34,893 bases of DNA from Vitreoscilla sp. (GTDB lineage: Bacteria; Pseudomonadota; Gammaproteobacteria; Burkholderiales; Burkholderiaceae_C), in the NCBI GenBank assembly GCA_018780145.1, contig JADMKA010000188.1:1-34893 (forward strand), in the 5' to 3' direction. The notes beneath the pieces are model-generated. The model searched no databases. It worked only from the letters and a program-made list of their open reading frames with translations, and was not told the origin of the DNA. Each line of letters starts with the position of its first letter. The first letter of the stretch is position 1. This document shows positions 23,415-33,622 of this stretch, piece after piece. Position numbers and translations under genes: made by a program.

Positions 23415-25148
23415 TCAACGGAACGGGAAGTAGACCGGGATCGCCAGCAAGGCCACGGCCAGAAAGGCCACGGCCACCGGCAGGCCGGTACGCACGAAAT
23501 CGCCGAAGGTGTAGCGCCCTGGCGCCATGATCATCAGGTTGGTCTGATAACCATAGGGTGTGATGAAGCTGCAGCTGGCGCCGTAGAGTACCGCCATGAT
23601 GAAGGGCATGGCCGACAGGCCCAGCTGCTCTGCCACGCCGAGAGCCACCGGGAAGGCCAGCGCGGCGGCGGCGTTGTTGCTCATCAGCTCGGTCAGGATC
23701 CAGGTCACCAGCAGCAGCATGGCCAGCGCGCCGTAGGGGCCGAACTGTTCGGCGCCGCTCAACAGGCCGCCTGCCATCAGCTTGGCCACGCCGGTGTTGA
23801 TCATCACCTCCGAGATGACCAGCGACGACGCGATGATCATGATCAGTTCCCACGGCACGTTGCGCCGCAGGTCGGCGACCTTGGCGAGGCCAGAGAACAG
23901 GAACAGGGCCAGCAGCAGCAACATGCCCTTGAGGAAATCGAACACGCCGAACGCCGACAGGCCGATCACGGCGATGAAGCCGATCATCGAGAGCCAGCCC
24001 TTGCGAGGGTTTACAAACTTTTGCACCTCGCGTCGCCGCACGATGACGAAGTTGCGACCCAGGTTGTTGCGCTTGTCGAAGTCCTGGCCAACGGCCAGCA
24101 CCAAGGCATCGCCGACCTCGAGCCGCGTGTTGCCGATCGAGCCACCCAGACGCTCGCTGCCCCGGCGAACGGCGATCACCGCGGCGTCGAAGTTGGAGCG
24201 GAAGTCCACCTCGCGGATGGTCCGGCGGGCCAACATCGAGCCGGCCGCGACCACGACCTCGATCAGGTTGTCCAGTGGCAGGTCGTCGTGGTGGCCGTGG
24301 GTCTTCAGGCCGTTGAACTGCGCGAGCAGGTCGACCCGGGTGACGTCGCCGGTGAACACCAGCAGATCACCGGCCTGGATGAAGCGGTCGGGGTCGACCG
24401 GAGCGATCAGGTGCTCGCTGCGCACGATCTCGGTCAGGAACAGATGACCCAGGTTGCGCAGGCCGGCCTCCTCGACGGTCTTGCCGATCAGCGGAGAACC
24501 GGCGAGCACCTCGGCCTCGAGAAAATAGTCGCTCGGCGTGTCCTCGGCAGGGGGCTGTGCCTTGAGCAGGCGCGGGTAGAGCACGACCATCACCGCACCA
24601 CACGCCACGACGATCAGGATGCCGACCGGGAACAGATCGAACAATTTCAGTTCAGGCAGCTGGCGGCCCACCATCAGGCTGTTGACCAGCAGGTTGGTGC
24701 TGGTGCCCACGAGGGTCAGGATGCCGCCCAGCGAAGCAGCGAAGCACATCGGCATCAGCAAGCGTGACGCGCTGTGCTCCCGGTTGCCCTTCAGCGGGCC
24801 CAGCAAGGATGCGACGACCGCCGTGTTGTTCAGGAACGCTGAGTACAGCGCGGTCGCACCGTACAACTTGACCAACGCCCAACGGTAGGGCCCGCGCACC
24901 AAGCCGTTGGCCAGCAGCTCCAGCATGCGCGACTTGTCCAGCACGATGGTCAGCAGCAGCAGCACGACCACCGTGACCAGCCCGTTGTTGGTGAACTGCT
25001 TCAGCGCGTTGGGCAGGCTGATGTAGTCCAGCATCACGTACAGGAGGGCCACGATGGCGAACAGCACGCCAGGTGACTTCTTGTCTCTCACAAGTTCCAC
25101 GATCAGCCAGGTCAGGCTGACGAAGACGATGATCTGGGCAATGGTCAT
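23415..25148 (-). CDS. SLC13/DASS-family permease with two TrkA-C domains, probable sulfate transporter
   Basis: 577 residues of inner-membrane protein. Hydrophobic segments cover about residues 1-195 and 395-577; between them is a soluble part with two RCK_C/TrkA_C-like units (LEAEVLAGSPLIGKTVEEAGLRN... and LIEVVVAAGSMLARRTIREVDFRS...LEVGDALVLAVG). The two family Asn-rich motifs are SAFLNNTAVVASLL and ELMSNNAAAALAFP, with LTLVGTSTNLLVNSLM. This is the layout of SAC1-like sulfate transporters. It lies 62 bases downstream of cysNC on the same strand, and ATG 25148 has GGAG seven bases upstream, so sulfate uptake for CysDN is the likely job. Other anions remain possible. Confidence 0.85.
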   Translation of the reverse strand: MTIAQIIVFVSLTWLIVELVRDKKSPGVLFAIVALLYVMLDYISLPNALKQFTNNGLVTVVVLLLLTIVLDKSRMLELLANGLVRGPYRWALVKLYGATALYSAFLNNTAVVASLLGPLKGNREHSASRLLMPMCFAASLGGILTLVGTSTNLLVNSLMVGRQLPELKLFDLFPVGILIVVACGAVMVVLYPRLLKAQPPAEDTPSDYFLEAEVLAGSPLIGKTVEEAGLRNLGHLFLTEIVRSEHLIAPVDPDRFIQAGDLLVFTGDVTRVDLLAQFNGLKTHGHHDDLPLDNLIEVVVAAGSMLARRTIREVDFRSNFDAAVIAVRRGSERLGGSIGNTRLEVGDALVLAVGQDFDKRNNLGRNFVIVRRREVQKFVNPRKGWLSMIGFIAVIGLSAFGVFDFLKGMLLLLALFLFSGLAKVADLRRNVPWELIMIIASSLVISEVMINTGVAKLMAGGLLSGAEQFGPYGALAMLLLVTWILTELMSNNAAAALAFPVALGVAEQLGLSAMPFIMAVLYGASCSFITPYGYQTNLMIMAPGRYTFGDFVRTGLPVAVAFLAVALLAIPVYFPFR

Positions 25149-25210: not shown

Positions 25211-27115
25211 TCAGTCGATCAGGCCCAGCTGCTTCATCCGCGAGATCACCGCGTCGGCGGCCTGCTCGGGGTTCAGCAGCGTGGTGTCGACGCGCAGTTC
25301 CGGCGCCTCCGGGGCCTCGTACGGGCTGGTGATGCCGGTGAAGTTGGCGATCTCGCCGCGGCGGGCCTTCTTGTACAGACCCTTGACGTCGCGGTCTTCG
25401 GCCACGTTCAGCGGCGTGTCGACGTGCACCTCGATGAACTCGCCCGCACCCAGCAGGCTGCGTGCCATCGCTCGCTCCGAGCGGAACGGCGAGATGAAGG
25501 CGGTGATCACGATCAGGCCGGCATCGACCATCAGGCGCGAGACCTCGGCCACGCGGCGGATGTTCTCCACCCGGTCGGCCTCGGTGAAGCCCAGGTCCTT
25601 GTTCAGGCCATGGCGGATGTTGTCGCCGTCCAGCAGGTAGGTGTGGCGGCCCATCGCGTGGAGCTTCTTCTCGACCAGGTTGGCGATGGTCGACTTGCCG
25701 GCACCCGACAGGCCGGTGAACCACAGCACGCCAGGGCGCTGACCCTTGGCGGTGGCGCGGGCGGCCTTGTCCACGTCCACATGCTGCATGTGGATGTTGT
25801 GCGAGCGGCGCAGCGCGAAGTGCAACATGCCCGCGCCAACCGTGTTGTTGGTCAGCCGGTTGATCAGGATGAAGCCGCCGGTGTCGCGGTTGACCGTGTA
25901 CGGGTCGAAGGCGATCGGGCGGTCCAGCGCCAGGTTGACGACGCCGATTTCATTGAGGCCCAGCTGCTTGGCGGCCAGGTGCTCCATGGTGTTGACGTTG
26001 ACCTTGTACTTCGGCTCGGTGATCGAGGCGGTCACGGTCTGGGTGCCGATCTTCATCAGGAACGAGCGGCCCGGCATCATCGGCTCGTCGTGCATCCAGA
26101 CGAGCGCGGCTTCGAACTGGTCGGCCACTTCGGCCGGCGAGTCGACGCCCGAAATCACGTCGCCGCGCGAGATGTCGATCTCGTCTTCCAGCGTCAGGGT
26201 CACCGACTGGCCGGCCACCGCCAGCGGCAGGTCGCCATTGAGCGTGACGATGCGCGCCACCTTGCTCTCGCGGCCCGACGGCTGGGCGCGGATCTTGTCG
26301 CCCGGCTTGACCATGCCGGCGGTGATCACGCCGCAGAAGCCGCGGAAGTCGAGGTTCGGGCGGTTGACCCACTGCACCGGCAGGCGGAAGGCTTCCTTCT
26401 GCAGGCGTTCTTCGTCGACTTCGCAGGTTTCCAGGAAGCCCATCAGCGTGGGGCCGTGGTACCAGGGCGTCTTCTCGCTGGCCACCAGCATGTTGTCGCC
26501 CTTCAGGCCGGACAACGGGATGCTGGTGACGTCGTTCAGGCCGATCTGCTTGGCGAACTCGCGGTACTCCTCGTTGATCTGGTCGAAGACCTTCTGCGAG
26601 TAGTCGACCAGGTCCATCTTGTTGATGGCCAGCACGACCTTGCGCACGCCGATCAGGCTCACGAGATAGCTGTGGCGGCGGGTTTGCGTGAGCACGCCCT
26701 TGCGCGCGTCGATCAGCACCACCGCCACGTCGGCGGTCGAGGCGCCGGTGATCATGTTGCGGGTGTACTGCTCGTGGCCCGGGGTGTCGGCGACGATGAA
26801 CTTGCGGCGATCGGTCGAGAAGAAGCGGTAGGCCACGTCGATCGTGATGCCCTGCTCGCGCTCGGCGGCCAGGCCGTCGACGAGCAGCGCGAAGTCGATG
26901 TCACCGCCCTGGGTGCCCCACTTCTTGGAGTCGTTCTCGATGGCGGCGAGCTGGTCCTCGAAGAGCATCTTCGATTCATACAGCAGGCGGCCAATGACGG
27001 TGGACTTGCCGTCGTCGACCGAGCCGCAGGTGATGAAGCGCAGCAGGCTCTTCTTCTCGTGCTGCTTCAGGTACTTTTCGATGTCGGTGGAGATCAGGTC
27101 CGATTGGTGGGCCAT
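25211..27115 (-). CDS. cysNC: bifunctional sulfate adenylyltransferase subunit 1 / adenylylsulfate kinase (CysN-CysC)
   Basis: 634 residues in two enzymes. Residues 1 to about 440 are CysN, the GTPase subunit of ATP sulfurylase, with G1 GSVDDGKST (31-39), DTPGHEQYT (110-118) and NKMD (165-168). Residues about 460-634 are APS kinase with Walker [10 protein letters not shown] (468-476), [12 protein letters not shown], and FISPFRSER with the serine usually phosphorylated near residue 542. The pair turns sulfate to APS and then PAPS. AAGGA six bases before the ATG is a good ribosome binding site. It lies 116 bases after cysD. The fusion is the NodQ-like arrangement. PAPS is needed by sulfotransferases and some reductases; the permease, cysD and cysQ are all neighbours. 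Confidence 0.96.
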
Positions 27116-27231: not shown

Positions 27232-29121
27232 CTAGAAATACCCTTCTTGTTTCTTCTTCTCCATCGAGGCCGCAGCGTCGTGGTCGATCATGCGGCCCTG
27301 GCGCTCGGAGGTCTTGGTCAGCAGCATCTCCTGGATGATCGAGGGCAGCGTATCGGCCTCGGACTCGACAGCGCCCGACAGCGGGTAGCAGCCCAGGGTG
27401 CGGAAGCGCACGCTCTTCATCATCGGCACCTCGCCATCGCGCAGCGGCATGCGGTCGTCGTCGACCATGATCAGCGTGCCGTCACGGTCCACCACCGGGC
27501 GCTTGGCCGCGAAGTACAGCGGCACGATGGGCACGTTCTCCAGGTAGATGTACTGCCAGATGTCGAGCTCGGTCCAGTTCGAGATCGGGAAGCAACGGAT
27601 CGACTCGCCCTTCTGCTTGCGGCCGTTGTACAGGCGCCAGAGCTCGGGGCGCTGGTTCTTCGGGTCCCAGCGGTGCTGGGCCGAGCGGAACGAGAAGATG
27701 CGCTCCTTGGCGCGACTCTTTTCCTCGTCGCGGCGTGCACCGCCGAAGGCGACGTCGAAGTTGTACTTGTCCAGCGCCTGCTTCAAGCCCTGCGTCTTCC
27801 ACATGTCGGTGTGGATCTGCGAGCCGTGGGTGAAAGGGTTGATGCCCAGTTCCATCGCCTCGGGGTTGTGGTGGACCAGCAGATCCATGCCCAGTTCCTT
27901 GGCCATGCGGTCGCGCATCTCGTACATCGCGCGGAACTTCCAGGTGGTGTCCACGTGCAGCAGCGGGAAGGGCGGCGGCGAGGGAAAGAAAGCCTTCTTG
28001 GCCAGGTGCAGCATGACAGCCGAGTCCTTGCCGATCGAGTACAGCATGACGGGGTTGTCGGCTTCGGCGACGACCTCGCGCATGATGTGAATGCTCTCGG
28101 CCTCCAGGCGCTGCAGGTGGGTCAGGTTCATGGGTGTGGCGTCCGTTGAATCAGGCGGATGGGAGTGAAAGGGGGCCGAGCGTTCGGCGGTCGGCGCGAT
28201 GATCGCAGCCGCTGCGGGTTTCTCCGCTGTCGGCTCGGGGGAAAGCGTGATGGATGTGGGCGGCGGCGCAATTTCCGCGCCAGGCGCTGGGGTGAACTCG
28301 TCGAGCGATCTGGCCACGGCGTCGTTCTGCAGCGTTTCTGCCGGCCTTCTCGCTCGGGGTGCCACCGGGCACGGCAGCAGTTGCAGATCCGTCTGGCCGA
28401 CCAGCCAGTGTTGAACAGCCGGTACCCGCCGGAAATCCGGCCCATGCAGGAAGACCCGCCAGGGCCCGGGCGCACTGCGCAGCAGCCGTTGCAGGAAGTC
28501 GAGATGGCTGTCGGCGGTCGCCAGCGAAGGCACCGGCAGCCAGGCCAGGCTGCCCCGTGGGCTCGAGGCGACCAGCAACCCGCCCGGCGAAGGCACGCCC
28601 GGATGCGACAGGCTGCCCGCCCAGGCGACGTGGCTGCCGCCATCGCGTGCTGCTTGCACGGCCGGCGCCCAGTGCTCTGCCACCCAGGCGGCTGCAGCGG
28701 GCGCCGTCTGCCCGCGCAGCGGCGCCAGGGCCAGCCCCCACCGTTCCAGCAGGCGCGAGATGGCACGGGGTTCCAAGAGCACGCCGAAGTGCCGCTGCGC
28801 CAGTTGGCGCAAGGCATCGCCGGTCCACCAGGGGTCGGTGAGGCCCCAGCGCTCCGGCGGCCCGGCCAGGGCGGCCTGGCGCAGGGCTTGCTCCTGTTCG
28901 GGCGTCAGCACCCGCCCACCGCCCCGCGGCCGGCCCCGGGGCGCTACGTCGATCGCCGCCCAGCCGCCCGCCTCGAAGGCTTGCGCGGACCGGATGATCG
29001 TCGGGACGCTCAGACCGGTTGCCTCCCTGATCTGCGTCAGGCTCAGCCCGTCGATGCGCAGCTGAACCGCCCGCCGACGGCGGGCATTCAGCGCAGCGAT
29101 ATCGAGGGAAGAGCGAGTCAC
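27232..29121 (-). CDS. cysD: CysD (sulfate adenylyltransferase subunit 2) in frame with an N-terminal transposase-derived domain
   Basis: Residues 331-629 of this 629-residue frame are a complete Cys[45 protein letters not shown] with the PP-motif SIGKDS at 362-367, [16 protein letters not shown], and [21 protein letters not shown]. With CysN it makes APS. A normal CysD start is ATG 28131 (299 residues). Upstream of it the frame stays open for 330 more codons to GTG 29121, with no stop, encoding helix-turn-helix and degenerate transposase sequence and a Pro/Ala-rich linker. Either one fusion protein is made, or CysD is also initiated internally at 28131, where only a weak GGA lies upstream. 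The gene is first in the cysD-cysNC-permease operon and divergent from cysQ. Confidence 0.9.
28132..29121 (-). other. IS630-like, apparently domesticated transposase domain fused to CysD
   Basis: This marks the 330-residue N-terminal part of the cysD frame. Residues 11-60 hold a homeodomain-like HTH ([41 protein letters not shown]). Residues 61-69 are a PRGRPRGGG hook. Residues 72-132 hold a second winged HTH of the IS630 kind ([33 protein letters not shown]). Residues about 160-262 follow the IS630 DDE domain outline, but the usual aspartates are replaced (HVAWAGS, VFLHGPD, RARRPAE). No terminal inverted repeats were seen. Residues 274-330 are a Pro/Ala-rich linker. DNA binding is plausible and transposition is not. 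Start GTG 29121 lies in a symmetric context with cysQ. Confidence 0.7.
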
Positions 29122-29207
29122 AAATCACGGTCAGAAAATGTTTTAGGGGGTTTGATTGTGGCACGGTGCGGGCACAATGGCGTATCCCTCATATCGAAAT
29201 GTGATTT
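29122..29207. promoter_or_regulatory. divergent cysD/cysQ control region with inverted repeat at both starts
   Basis: AAATCAC (29122-29128) abuts the GTG start on the - strand, and GTGATTT (29201-29207) abuts the cysQ ATG on the + strand. Read outward, each strand shows GTGATTT directly followed by the start codon and GAC (GTGATTTGTGAC and GTGATTTATGAC). Between them lie TTGATT (29152-29157) and CACAAT (29173-29178), a possible + strand promoter with a short 15-nt spacer. No Shine-Dalgarno sequence precedes either start. An operator reaching both initiation sites, or short-leader transcripts, would fit. Confidence 0.5.
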
Positions 29208-29987
<780 letters not shown>

Positions 29988-30004
29988 GCTTCCGCGCCGC
30001 GACC

Positions 30005-32062
30005 GTGGTCGCCACGCCCCTGTCTGATCCGCTGGCCGGGTGCACCGGCGCGGTCTTGCATGGGCCCGGCGTGGCAGCGGTGGCCACGCTGCCGGCCTTG
30101 CTGCCGGGGTTGCGCCTGCTGCGCCCGCGCGATGCCGCCGATTCGCCAGCCGATGTGGTGCTGGCCTGGGGCCGCAAGCCCAGCGCGCAACGCGCCGAGG
30201 CCTGGGCCCGCTCGCAGGGCCTGCCGATGCGGTGGCTGGAAGATGGGTTCCTGCGTTCGGTGGGCCTGGGGCCGGACGAGCCGCCGTTGTCCATCGTCGT
30301 CGACGACCAGGGCATCTACTACGACGCCTCGGCGCCGTCGCGCCTGGAGAGCCTGGTGGTGGCCGGGGTGGACGCCGCCGGCCAGGGCCGCGCCGACGCC
30401 CTGGTGGGCCGCTGGCGTTCGGCGCGTGCTTCCAAGTACAACCAGGCGCGCGAAACGCCGGGGCTGGTACACGACGGCGATGTGCTGGTGGTGGACCAGA
30501 CCTTTGGCGACGCCTCGATCGCCTTTGGCGCTGCCAGCCCGGCCAGCTTCACCCGCATGCTGGAAGCCGCGCTGGACGAGCACCCCGGTGCCCGTATCCT
30601 GCTCAAGGTTCACCCGGACGTGCTGGCCGGGCGCAAGCGCGGCCACTTCGCCGCGCTGCCACCCGGCGCCGCGGCGCGGGTGCTCATGGTGGCCAGCCCG
30701 GCCCACCCGCCCGGGCTGCTGGAGCGTGCAGCGGCCGTCTACACCGTGACCTCCCAGATGGGCTTCGAGGCCTTGTTGTGGGGCCGGCCGGTGCGCTGCT
30801 TCGGCATGCCCTTCTACGCCGGCTGGGGGCTGAGCCAGGACGAGCTGGCCGCACCGGCGCGCCGGGTGGCGTCGACGCTGACCAGCCTGGTCCACGCCGC
30901 GTTGATCGGCTATCCGCGCTACATCGACCCAGAGGCCCGCGTACGCTGCGAGGTCGAGCAATTGCTCGATTGGGTCGGCCTGCAGCGGCGCCAGCGCGAG
31001 CGGTTTCCGGCGCGCATGGTGGCGGTCGGCTTCTCGCGCTGGAAGCGGCCCATTGCCCGGGCCTTCTTCGCCGGCAGCGAGCTGCGGTTCCAGGGGCCGC
31101 GCCAACCCGTGCCAGACGGCGCCGGCCTGGTGCTGTGGGGGCGCCGGCCGGTGCCTGCGGGTGCACAGGGCCTGGCCGCCGAGCGCCTGGTGCGCCTGGA
31201 GGACGGCTTTCTGCGTTCGGTCGGCCTCGGTGCCGATCTGGTGCGGCCCCTGTCCTGGGTGATGGAGCGGCGCGGCATGTACTACGACGCGACGGGCCCG
31301 TCCGATCTGGAGGTGCTGTTGTCAGTGGCCGACTTCTCCGAGGCCGACCTGATGCGCGCCCGGGCCTTGCGCGAAAGGATCCTGGCGCTCGGCCTGACCA
31401 AGTACAACGTCGGCCACCAGGCTTGGCGCCGTCCGGAGACGACCCCCCATGTGGTGCTGGTGGTCGGGCAGGTCGAGGGCGATGCGTCCATCAAGCTCGG
31501 CGCGCCCGACATCCGCACGAACATGGGCTTACTGCGCGCTGTTCGTGCATGGCGCCCCGATTCGTACCTGGTCTACAAGCCGCACCCCGACGTGGTGGCC
31601 CAGCTCCGCGAGGCTGGGCAGGGGGAGGGCGGGGCCCTGCGCTGGTGCGACGAGATCGTCATCGATGCGCCCATGGATCAGGTTCTTCGGGATGTTGACG
31701 AAGTGCATGTACTCACTTCACTGGCGGGTTTCGAGGCGTTGCTGCGCAGCCGGCCGGTGGTGACATGGGGCCAGCCGTTCTATGCGGGTTGGGGGCTGAC
31801 GGATGACCGGGTCCCGCTGGCACGTCGGCAGCGGCGTTTGTCGCTCGACGAATTGGTGGCGGGTGTACTCTTGCACTATCCGACCTATGTCAGTCGGGTG
31901 ACTGGGCACTTCACCACGCCGGAAAGAGCCCTCACCGAGTTGCAGGCCTGGCGTCGCGAAGACGCCACCGGCCCCACCGTCTCCCTGGCGCGTCGCACCT
32001 GGCGCTGGGCGTTGCGATGGGGCGTCCAGCTGCGGCGTCGGCTCACCGGAGAGGCCGCCTGA
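30005..32062 (+). CDS. kpsC: KpsC-type capsular polysaccharide Kdo transferase, two-domain
   Basis: 685 residues. KpsC builds, with KpsS, the beta-Kdo linker on which ABC-exported capsules are assembled at the inner membrane. Two homologous modules are visible. Near residues 76-89 is RWLEDGFLRSVGLG, followed by SIVVDDQGIYYDASAPSRLESL. Near residues 396-409 is VRLEDGFLRSVGLG, followed by SWVMERRGMYYDATGPSDLEVL. Each ends in a block like VTSQMGFEALLWGRPVRCFGMPFYAGWGLS (first) and LTSLAGFEALLRSRPVVTWGQPFYAGWGLT (second). GTG 30005 was chosen since the frame upstream overlaps cysQ; an ATG-led start is not available nearby. No kpsM or kpsT exporter is in the window. Confidence 0.92.
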   Translation: MVATPLSDPLAGCTGAVLHGPGVAAVATLPALLPGLRLLRPRDAADSPADVVLAWGRKPSAQRAEAWARSQGLPMRWLEDGFLRSVGLGPDEPPLSIVVDDQGIYYDASAPSRLESLVVAGVDAAGQGRADALVGRWRSARASKYNQARETPGLVHDGDVLVVDQTFGDASIAFGAASPASFTRMLEAALDEHPGARILLKVHPDVLAGRKRGHFAALPPGAAARVLMVASPAHPPGLLERAAAVYTVTSQMGFEALLWGRPVRCFGMPFYAGWGLSQDELAAPARRVASTLTSLVHAALIGYPRYIDPEARVRCEVEQLLDWVGLQRRQRERFPARMVAVGFSRWKRPIARAFFAGSELRFQGPRQPVPDGAGLVLWGRRPVPAGAQGLAAERLVRLEDGFLRSVGLGADLVRPLSWVMERRGMYYDATGPSDLEVLLSVADFSEADLMRARALRERILALGLTKYNVGHQAWRRPETTPHVVLVVGQVEGDASIKLGAPDIRTNMGLLRAVRAWRPDSYLVYKPHPDVVAQLREAGQGEGGALRWCDEIVIDAPMDQVLRDVDEVHVLTSLAGFEALLRSRPVVTWGQPFYAGWGLTDDRVPLARRQRRLSLDELVAGVLLHYPTYVSRVTGHFTTPERALTELQAWRREDATGPTVSLARRTWRWALRWGVQLRRRLTGEAA

Positions 32063-32072
32063 TTCGCCCAGA

Positions 32073-32089
32073 GAGACCACAATTGTCTC
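32073..32089. other. small hairpin after kpsC
   Basis: GAGAC-cacaatt-GTCTC has 5-bp arms and a 7-nt loop containing CAATTG, ten bases after the kpsC stop. There is no T-run. It is at best a weak attenuator or an operator-like site. Confidence 0.25.
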
Positions 32090-32189
32090 AAGGGTTAGCT
32101 CCAGGCGCCGATTCCATCAACAACCGTCAACTCCGGGGCAAGAGCCACCTATTCGTGGGATCGTTCACGGGAGGTACACCGCATAGAGT

Positions 32190-32225
32190 GTCACAGTGAC
32201 GCATCACACTGGAACGATGCGTCAC
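32190..32225. promoter_or_regulatory. overlapping inverted repeats upstream of kpsS
   Basis: GTGACGCATC (32196-32205) and GATGCGTCAC (32216-32225) are perfect 10-bp arms with a 10-nt spacer, so their centres lie two helical turns apart. The left arm also belongs to a second palindrome, GTCAC-A-GTGAC (32190-32200). A further TGTGAC occurs at 32292-32297. The cluster lies 101-137 bases before the kpsS start, in the 264-base gap after kpsC. It looks like a regulator-binding array or a stem-loop in the leader; the regulator is unknown. Confidence 0.55.
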
Positions 32226-32326
32226 AAGGCGGGAACGCAGGTTGCTTAGACAAGTGGCCTACCGCGGAGTCCCGAGGCTTGTTGCCAAGAGATGTGACAG
32301 GTTGCAAGTCAGAAATTACCAAACCC

Positions 32327-33622
32327 ATGATTCCCACCTCCCTCGATCGACTCCTTTGCCAGCGTCGCACGCTGATGCTGCAAGGGCCGATGGGGCCGTT
32401 CTTCCAGCGGCTCGCGGGAACCCTGCGCGCCCATGGCCAGCAGGTGTGGAAGGTCAATTTCAACGCGGGCGACGATTGGTTCTTCGACGACGAGCAGGTG
32501 ATCCGCTTCCAGGATCCGCTGGAGCAGTGGCCCGCCCGACTGCGGCGCCTGGTCACTGAATTGCGAATCGATGCACTGGTTTTGTTCGGTCAGTCGCGCC
32601 ACATGCACCAGGCGGCGATCCGCGAGGCCAAATCGCTCGACGTGCAGGTGTTCGTGTTCGAGGAGGGCTATGTCCGCCCCGATTACGTCACGCTGGAGGT
32701 GGGGGGGGTCAATGCCGAGTCCCCACTGCCGCGTGACCCTGCCTTCTACCGCGATCTGAACGCCGAACCCCTGCCTGCACCGCAGCCCACCGGCCAGCGT
32801 TTCGGCGCGGTGGCCGCCGCCGCCATCACCTACTCGCTGGCGCGCAGCTTCGGCCACCACCGCTACCCGCACTACCGCCACCACCGCTCGATCGCACCGA
32901 TCAAGCAGGGCCTCAAGTGGGCCAACGGGGCTTGGCGCAAGTGGTGGTACCGGTTGACCGAAAGCCGCATGCAGGACTTCCTCGGTGCACCGGCGCAGCA
33001 CAAGCGCTTCTTCCTGGTGCCGCTGCAGGTCTACAACGACAGCCAGATTCGCCGCCATTCGCCCTACAAGGATGTGCCTGCGTTCATCCGAGAGGTGATG
33101 GCGTCGTTTGCCCAGCACGCCGAGACCGACAAGCTGCTGGTCTTCAAGCACCACCCGCTGGACCGGCCGTACAACGACTACACCGGCCTGATCGCCCGGG
33201 CGGCGCGCTCGTTGGGCATCGCGGACCGGGTGCACTACATCCACGACCAGCACCTGCCGACCTTGCTCAAGCATGCCGCCGGCGTGGTCACGGTCAACAG
33301 CACCACCGGTCTGCAGTCCCTCTACCACGGCACCCCGGTGATCCCGCTGGGCGAGTGCATGTATGCGATCGAGGGCCTGGTCCATCCCGGCCCGCTGGAA
33401 TCCTTCTGGCGCAACCCGGGCCCGGTGGACGCCGAGTTGTTCCACAACTTCCGCACCTATCTCGTGCGTGAATCCCAGCTCAACGCCAGCTTCTACGGCG
33501 CTGCGCCGGGGTTGCCGTCGATCACCGAGACCAAGCGCCGCCGCGCTTCGTCGCTGGACAGCCCGAGCGCGTTGCCCCAAGCGGCCAACTGGTCGGCCCC
33601 CACGCGCCCCACGTTGAAGTAA
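32327..33622 (+). CDS. kpsS: KpsS-type capsular polysaccharide biosynthesis protein
   Basis: 431 residues. KpsS adds the first Kdo to the phosphatidylglycerol acceptor of ABC-dependent capsules, and KpsC extends it. Seen: LMLQGPMGPFFQRLAGTLRAHGQQVWKVNFNAGDDWFF at the N-terminus, FGQSRHMHQAAIREAKSLDVQVFVFEEGYVRPDYVTLE, FFLVPLQVYNDSQIRRHSPY, LLVFKHHPLDRPYNDY and TVNSTTGLQSLYHGTPVIPLGECMY. ATG 32327 starts just before conserved sequence; a TTG at 32279 would add 16 unconserved residues. The conserved part ends near ESQLNASFYG. The last 40 or so codons run antisense to the 3' end of metH, a 130-base convergent overlap. Confidence 0.92.
   Translation: MIPTSLDRLLCQRRTLMLQGPMGPFFQRLAGTLRAHGQQVWKVNFNAGDDWFFDDEQVIRFQDPLEQWPARLRRLVTELRIDALVLFGQSRHMHQAAIREAKSLDVQVFVFEEGYVRPDYVTLEVGGVNAESPLPRDPAFYRDLNAEPLPAPQPTGQRFGAVAAAAITYSLARSFGHHRYPHYRHHRSIAPIKQGLKWANGAWRKWWYRLTESRMQDFLGAPAQHKRFFLVPLQVYNDSQIRRHSPYKDVPAFIREVMASFAQHAETDKLLVFKHHPLDRPYNDYTGLIARAARSLGIADRVHYIHDQHLPTLLKHAAGVVTVNSTTGLQSLYHGTPVIPLGECMYAIEGLVHPGPLESFWRNPGPVDAELFHNFRTYLVRESQLNASFYGAAPGLPSITETKRRRASSLDSPSALPQAANWSAPTRPTLK

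Follow-up and report, generated by a model that had tools for sequence, protein, structure and literature searches.

An IS630-type transposase remnant fused in frame to CysD and a candidate operator before the fused gene

The fused gene and its surroundings

The 34,893 nucleotides of contig JADMKA010000188.1 (Vitreoscilla sp., assembly GCA_018780145.1) that were analysed, hereafter the window, encode on the minus strand a CysD protein, the ATP sulfurylase subunit, that is preceded in frame by the remains of an IS630-family transposase. The features of this locus, with the evidence by which each was recognised where this applies, are as follows.

23415–25148, minus strand: CitMHS/TrkA-C type anion permease, after cysNC
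25211–27115, minus strand: cysNC, the next gene downstream of the fused cysD (named from sequence reading)
27232–29121, minus strand: fused gene of 629 amino acids with a GTG start, consisting of an IS630-derived, predicted DNA-binding part, a linker and CysD (35 distinct fused proteins)
27232–28131, minus strand: CysD part with an internal ATG at 28131–28129 (TIGR02039, 1zun_A)
28132–28329, minus strand: Pro/Ala-rich linker, about residues 265–330 (pLDDT, alignment, dN/dS)
28357–28701, minus strand: remnant of an RNase H-like DDE domain, about residues 141–255, catalytic residues lost (hhalign, catalytic columns, Foldseek)
28717–29121, minus strand: bipartite, predicted DNA-binding part, residues 1–135, with HTH1, an AT-hook-like segment and HTH2 (Pfam HTH_29 and HTH_33, IS630 model, helices of the predicted model)
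28912–28938, minus strand: AT-hook-like segment RGRPRGGGR, residues 62–70 (sequence and invariant columns; low-confidence in the predicted model)
29130–29147, minus strand: candidate operator CCTAAAACATTTTCTGAC, ending 8 nt before the start codon
29155–29163, minus strand: extended -10-like element TGCCACAAT (14 of the 29 loci were aligned, and TG, A, A and T do not vary among them)
29208–29987, plus strand: cysQ-like inositol-phosphatase family gene, divergent

The region between 29121 and 27232 on the minus strand was a single open frame of 629 codons, which confirmed the claim of an earlier note on this DNA that the cysD frame runs without a stop into a 330-residue N-terminal part. As a TGA lies two codons 5′ of the GTG (29127–29125), the GTG at 29121 is the first possible start; inspection of the sequence before it revealed no clear Shine-Dalgarno. 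The N-terminal part, which we refer to as the N part, comprises about 265 residues and is followed by the linker of about 65. The Pro/Ala-rich character of the linker (residues about 265–330) had been recognised earlier; it has low pLDDT and is the most variable part of the fused protein.

Residues 336–629 matched the CysD model TIGR02039 with 503.7 bits against a cut-off of 396.6 (full-length), and the best solved structure for this part was 1zun_A (1.7e-149). The CysD part is complete, with the YSIGKDS loop and many invariant columns, so that the protein resembles known CysD and 1zun_A in this half and differs from them in bearing an extra 330-residue, predicted DNA-binding extension. The partner of CysD, cysNC, is encoded adjacent to it. 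Among the best 80 of 92 related loci there were 26 with an intact fused gene; a cysNC homolog followed cysD in 25 of these, the sequence of the 26th (L065) ending inside cysD, and a cysQ-like gene occupied the same place in 18. The fused gene was the only cysD found in the genome of the window. An APS reductase was also present, and was found in 14 of the 16 genomes of the window's genus, in eight of them above the family cut-off. Past cysQ (window positions 29798–33622), two long frames resemble capsule polysaccharide export genes by sequence reading, and activated sulfate might therefore also serve capsule sulfation.

A start codon was present at the beginning of the CysD part in 31 of the 35 fused genes (29 ATG, 2 GTG), and no start codon lay within six codons of this point in L047, L056, L155 and L163. 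Pairing with 16S RNA was on average stronger for the stretch before the internal start than for in-frame positions of the linker (mean fraction 0.19, kinship uncorrected), but was absent in L061 and L108 and slight in L143 and L157. A second, short CysD product is thus plausible in many lineages.

Ancestry, spread and descent of the N part

Residues 14–140 of the N part matched the NCBIfam IS630 model (4e-16, 59 bits), at 57.5 bits for the whole protein and 59.2 bits for the N part against a curated cut-off of 100, which was not reached. The Pfam models HTH_29 and HTH_33 scored above their cut-offs and HTH_32 and HTH_28 below. With hhalign, the profile of 27 fused N parts aligned to that of five intact IS630 transposases of related genomes over residues 3–254 (probability 100, E value 1.8e-40). 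Together with the helices of the predicted model, these matches bear out the two helix-turn-helix units in IS630 layout that had been read from the sequence.

An AlphaFold2 model built on the 27-row alignment had a pLDDT of mostly 87–98 across residues 11–260, dipping to 56 at residues 61–70, which include the AT-hook-like segment, and falling to about 42–59 in the linker. The order of the predicted fold was the helices of two HTH units, an RNase H-like sheet and the low-confidence linker. The full-length model was poor (pTM 0.41) and was left out of any reading of domain packing. Foldseek analysis of the N part model revealed integrase-core matches (probability 0.99–1.0, E about 0.02–0.1) and a match to the Pax5 paired domain (probability 0.90); there was no match at E ≤ 1e-3, and the best rows were TnsB of a CRISPR-associated transposon. 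A search of PDB chains with the sequence profile gave none at E ≤ 1.

The bipartite N-terminal HTH of IS630 transposases was present and their D, D, E triad was not. In the column of the first aspartate, 25 of 29 fused proteins had G and none had D; in that of the second, 24 of 29 had H and none had D; the column of the catalytic glutamate was empty in 29/29. The earlier description of a DDE region lacking the expected acidic residues extends to all 29 aligned fused proteins.

In the ISY100 transposase (PMC2170065) the order is HTH, AT-hook-like segment, HTH, and a relatively weak DNA binding is retained by the first HTH together with the AT-hook; the bipartite layout of residues 1–135 was compared with this arrangement. 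The window protein shares with IS630/Tc1-mariner transposases (ISY100, IS1471) the two N-terminal HTH units flanking an AT-hook-like segment and followed by an RNase H-like domain, and IS1471, which is found on plasmids, was 29% identical. Unlike IS630 elements, it is without the catalytic D, D, E and without the C-terminal part, and its N part has a single match in the window's genome; the N part is found fused to or just before cysD. Across the 27-row alignment of fused N parts, G63 and R64 of the AT-hook-like segment were invariant, as were the HTH columns R15, A18, V19, L21, R22, G25, T35, G36, L37, S38, P40 and T41.

Comparison of CysD N-termini among relatives, suggested earlier as a check, revealed the fusion to be conserved. 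In all, 35 distinct fused proteins were assembled; their sources are Ideonella, Azohydromonas, Rhizobacter MAGs, Oceanimonas and other genomes, including type strains of Ideonella and Azohydromonas as well as Oceanimonas smirnovii. This set consists of 29 proteins (the 26 intact fused loci among the best 80 of 92 related loci, and three from same-genus genomes) and six from wider profile searches; L038 and L065, two genes of one MAG, were counted separately, and L027/L048, with a cut N part, was excluded. The open frames of these 35 are not independent evidence, since fusion was the selection criterion. A search of 149 relatives with the N part alone gave 16 matches under the E value of 1e-30. 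Every one of them lay in a frame that had no stop and was 599 residues or longer, and 16/16 of these frames contained CysD. A chance opening in GC-rich DNA is excluded by these 16 matches, and a chance open frame was rejected as an explanation.

Within the window's genus, 14 of 16 genomes (its own included) carried an intact fused gene and one (G002) a cut version; no cysD was found in G010. The wider profile searches of 399, 369 and 398 genomes (partly overlapping, E ≤ 1e-20) yielded at least six further fused proteins, and the other examined matches were IS630 transposases. A profile search of the frames in 53 unfused loci among the best 80 of 92 related loci revealed no N part.

Two variants of the arrangement were found. 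In G846, G923 and G1196, all of one other family in the same class as the window, the N part was a gene of its own just before cysD. A stop between the two parts, which by the earlier note would tell against its reading, does occur in relatives, but in the form of two adjacent genes and in these three genomes only; this fits a regulator gene. In G740 only HTH1 and the AT-hook were fused to CysD and the DDE remnant was gone; G835, of the same genus, kept the longer form. The G740 locus (L163:1-3201) has no start codon near the CysD beginning. When the profile search was extended to further loci, it detected in L132 (G025), at a profile E of 4e-7, a diverged fused case: one of the two CysD copies of this genome is preceded by a long N part whose HTH is hard to recognise. 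The cut N part of G002 was recovered as well. The same-genus MAG locus L048:1935-3089 (= L027) encoded the N part only from about residue 219 onward; its upstream DNA does not match, owing to a rearrangement or to a misassembly.

The 29 fused N parts formed one clade against the five IS630 transposases (support 100/100). In the CysD tree (28/29 fused, 82 rows), eight changes were needed and at least four were forced, so that a single origin of fused CysD is unsupported although the N parts form one clade. The fused CysD of O. smirnovii differed from the unfused CysD of the same genome by 0.0045 changes per site, and its N part was only 33% identical to that of the window. Because the N parts form one clade and the CysD parts do not, and because O. 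smirnovii combines a near-identical CysD with a diverged N part, the N module and CysD have probably recombined; the near-identical CysD parts of O. smirnovii (L045, L058) suggest gene conversion or a fresh fusion.

Ratios of dN/dS were obtained by Nei-Gojobori counting, with codon bias uncorrected, for the 14 closest pairs listed. In the five closest of these, dN/dS was 0.04–0.25 for the HTH part, 0.21–0.31 for the DDE remnant, 0–1.5 for the linker and 0.03–0.10 for CysD; some of the more distant pairs reached 0.80 in the HTH part and 1.06 in the DDE remnant. Across the five closest pairs, purifying selection is evident in the HTH part and in CysD. Neutral evolution of the N part, which would speak against exaptation, is ruled out by close pairs as far as the HTH part is concerned, and less clearly so for the DDE remnant. 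The preference of the earlier note for an old exaptation over a recent insertion is upheld by the single N-part clade (100/100), the catalytic residues gone in 29/29 and the purifying selection in the five closest pairs.

An A/T-rich site before the fused gene and in front of a sulfur permease

The DNA directly 5′ of the fused gene contained an A/T-rich motif, CTAAAACATTTNNTGWC. The best 18-mer model scored 577 bits over 29 loci, compared to 253–271 bits in six mononucleotide-shuffled sets. A search matrix built only from eight distinct Ideonella words recovered the site in 10/15 other fused loci of the main set at ≤ 1/300 shuffles. The five misses were L045 and L050, with no significant site (15 and 26 of 300 shuffles), and L041, L061 and L108, with a weak one (7–12 of 300). 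At unfused cysD loci (51 loci, L051–L110 minus the fused ones, with 160 bases upstream) the site was present in 2/51 at ≤ 3/300 shuffles. The difference in frequency between fused and unfused loci gave a Fisher value of 8e-7, although this and the shuffle values overstate independence, as the loci are related; collapsed to clades, 6/8 have at least one member at ≤ 1/300 shuffles. For the nine loci that are more distant, whether fused or two-gene, ≤ 3/300 shuffles was reached in L143 and L165 only, the L165 word lying close to or inside the gene. The motif as modelled therefore belongs mainly to the wider group of the window, and an operator universal among fused genes was rejected (5/15 misses in the main set, 7/9 among distant loci).

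In the 5.57 Mb genome of the window, allowing up to two mismatches, there was one site, at the fused gene. Within the genus the site stood at the fused gene in 13/14 genomes with an intact gene, the exception being G007. A further 12 pattern matches in the genus lay away from the fused gene, against 17 for a reversed control, so that off-gene matches with two mismatches are at chance level. The Azohydromonas lata variant, CATTAAATGCTTAATG, occurred once in 7.2 Mb, at the fused gene, and there was no match to this variant in G074, which also has a fused gene. The palindromicity of the operator was modest (4.7 of 8, compared to 4.23 in shuffles).

The pattern TGnnAnAnT preceded the site in 14/14 loci that were aligned (out of 29). 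If TGCCACAAT is a promoter, transcription would start at about the first operator base (+1). A sigma-70 scan before the fused gene found nothing, and the motif could instead serve the start of transcription or translation. As regards origin, the operator being a relic of an IS end stays speculation: in a test for which 5/25 IS630 loci had a suitable start and were kept, only 1/5 upstream regions reached ≤ 2/200 shuffles. The inner end at L017 resembles the operator.

The proposal that the fused enzyme regulates its own operon is helped by this conserved motif just before the gene and held back by the motif not being recognisable in most distant relatives.

Elsewhere in the genus, the operator is found again a short way ahead of a gene for a TauE/SafE sulfur permease (L177:1501-1517, L184:1501-1517 and L185:1501-1517). 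Of the off-gene matches, 3/12 have 0 or 1 mismatch and lie within about 50–110 bases before a TauE/SafE gene; the other nine have two mismatches. The G005 site overlaps the last part of the xdhC frame that precedes it, and those of G011 and G015 are intergenic. Among 13 same-genus genomes with a TauE/SafE gene, six had the site (0/300 shuffles), four a weak one (5–10/300) and three, namely the window's own genome, G012 and G013, none. The TauE/SafE gene of Azohydromonas lata was also without such a site, and on these counts a universal TauE site was rejected. The permease was found in only 4/110 family genomes at E ≤ 1e-70. In G061, which has an unfused cysD, it follows cysNC, and it is thereby tied to the sulfate-activation pathway.

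A proposed regulator of sulfate activation

We consider it fairly probable that an IS630-family transposase, now catalytically dead, was domesticated as the N part, which is fused to CysD in most lineages found and regulates the cysD-cysNC operon. Judged from sequence, its two HTH units and AT-hook would bind the A/T-rich site just before the start codon of cysD-cysNC. It would most likely repress its own operon and, in some relatives, the TauE/SafE permease as well, repression being our preference over activation as the sign is unreadable from sequence. A flexible linker would tie the regulator to CysD in most lineages found, and transcription could then respond to how much enzyme there is or to its state, free or in a complex with CysNC; the sensed state of the enzyme would in this case be the signal. 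In many lineages the internal start would probably also yield CysD without the regulator, if, as the codon counts and 16S pairing suggest, it is in use.

These elements can be joined into a more specific scheme of sulfate-flux switching, which we put forward tentatively and hold to be doubtful as a whole. A long HTH-CysD repressor would exist beside short CysD from the internal start; free HTH-CysD would bind the operator and CysD engaged with CysNC or substrate could not, so that the enzyme would count its own active complexes. Recombination would have carried the regulator module from one CysD lineage to another, and some genomes would have the sulfur permease under its command as well.

Among other explanations, the one that survives best, which we nevertheless regard as rather unlikely, is that the motif is the site of another sulfur regulator (e.g. 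CysB), a promoter or an AU-rich translation-start element, the N part serving a different purpose, for instance bringing the enzyme to DNA or acting as a scaffold for CysD-CysNC. With no sigma-70 promoter recognised and no clear Shine-Dalgarno, an A/T-rich leader might aid initiation; a general sulfur regulon would also give a site before TauE in some genomes, and the distant fused genes are mostly without a recognisable site. Against this, the site is sequence-specific, rare in the searched genomes and nearly absent at unfused cysD (2/51), including in Rubrivivax of the same NCBI family, and HTH1 and the AT-hook are what G740 retains.

It is improbable that the N part is baggage, an old in-frame fusion that is tolerated and drifts, with CysD made from the internal start. 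The HTH residues are invariant across deep divergence (27 rows) and HTH dN/dS is low in close pairs, however fast the evolution of the linker and, for several pairs, of the DDE remnant. Similarly, the CysD start codon in 31/35 genes, with a Shine-Dalgarno-like signal on average above in-frame linker positions, is what baggage would lead one to expect, but 4/35 have none in the six codons around the point where CysD begins, no stop interrupts any of the 16 best N-part matches from the 149 relatives, and three genomes retain the N part as a separate gene. A still mobile or recently inserted IS630 element that landed in frame by chance is, for all the clear IS630 ancestry, rejected as vanishingly unlikely on the single match in the window's genome with no intact copy seen elsewhere there, cysNC downstream in 25/26 fused loci (among the best 80 of 92), the clade support (100/100 against IS630) and the catalytic acids absent in 29/29.

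Enzymes that regulate their own genes are known as trigger enzymes; PutA and NadR are examples with a DNA-binding domain. The regulation of cysD-cysNC by the fused protein, as proposed here, would resemble them in pairing a metabolic enzyme that has its own DNA-binding part with a site before its own gene; the DNA-binding domain is here recognised by homology and predicted fold, and the conserved site is present in the window's group, most distant relatives being without a recognisable one. It would differ in the transposase origin of its DNA-binding part, in the enzyme being a sulfate-activating subunit and in the regulation being a proposal. TldR proteins are derived from TnpB. They are RNA-guided transcription factors according to PMC13418256, and are thus another case of a transposon-derived protein reused as a transcription factor, of another protein family and RNA-guided, whereas in our case the source is a DDE transposase and its remnant is joined to an enzyme. 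The PAPS reductase of truffle, a sulfate-assimilation enzyme of CysD-related fold (Pfam PAPS_reduct), acts as a transcription factor with activation via a C-terminal peptide; this enzyme is fungal, and the available part of PMC4848566 reports no fused HTH. A review of recruited mobile-element proteins in prokaryotes covers co-opted phage and antitoxin regulators, and the terms 'IS630' and 'sulfate' are absent from its main text (PMC8987985). Among the papers listed in literature searches on this gene or on domesticated bacterial transposases, most subscription journals being outside the scope, none described the fusion.

If the proposal is true, a bacterial DDE transposase has taken on the role of a transcription factor dedicated to a core metabolic operon and has been joined to the very enzyme under its control. 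As the cysD that bears it is the only one found in the genome of the window, the regulator would be placed where sulfate assimilation begins. Autoregulation of sulfate activation would be directly testable, since a candidate site, a minimal unit for binding and natural variants with two genes or with the HTH only are at hand.
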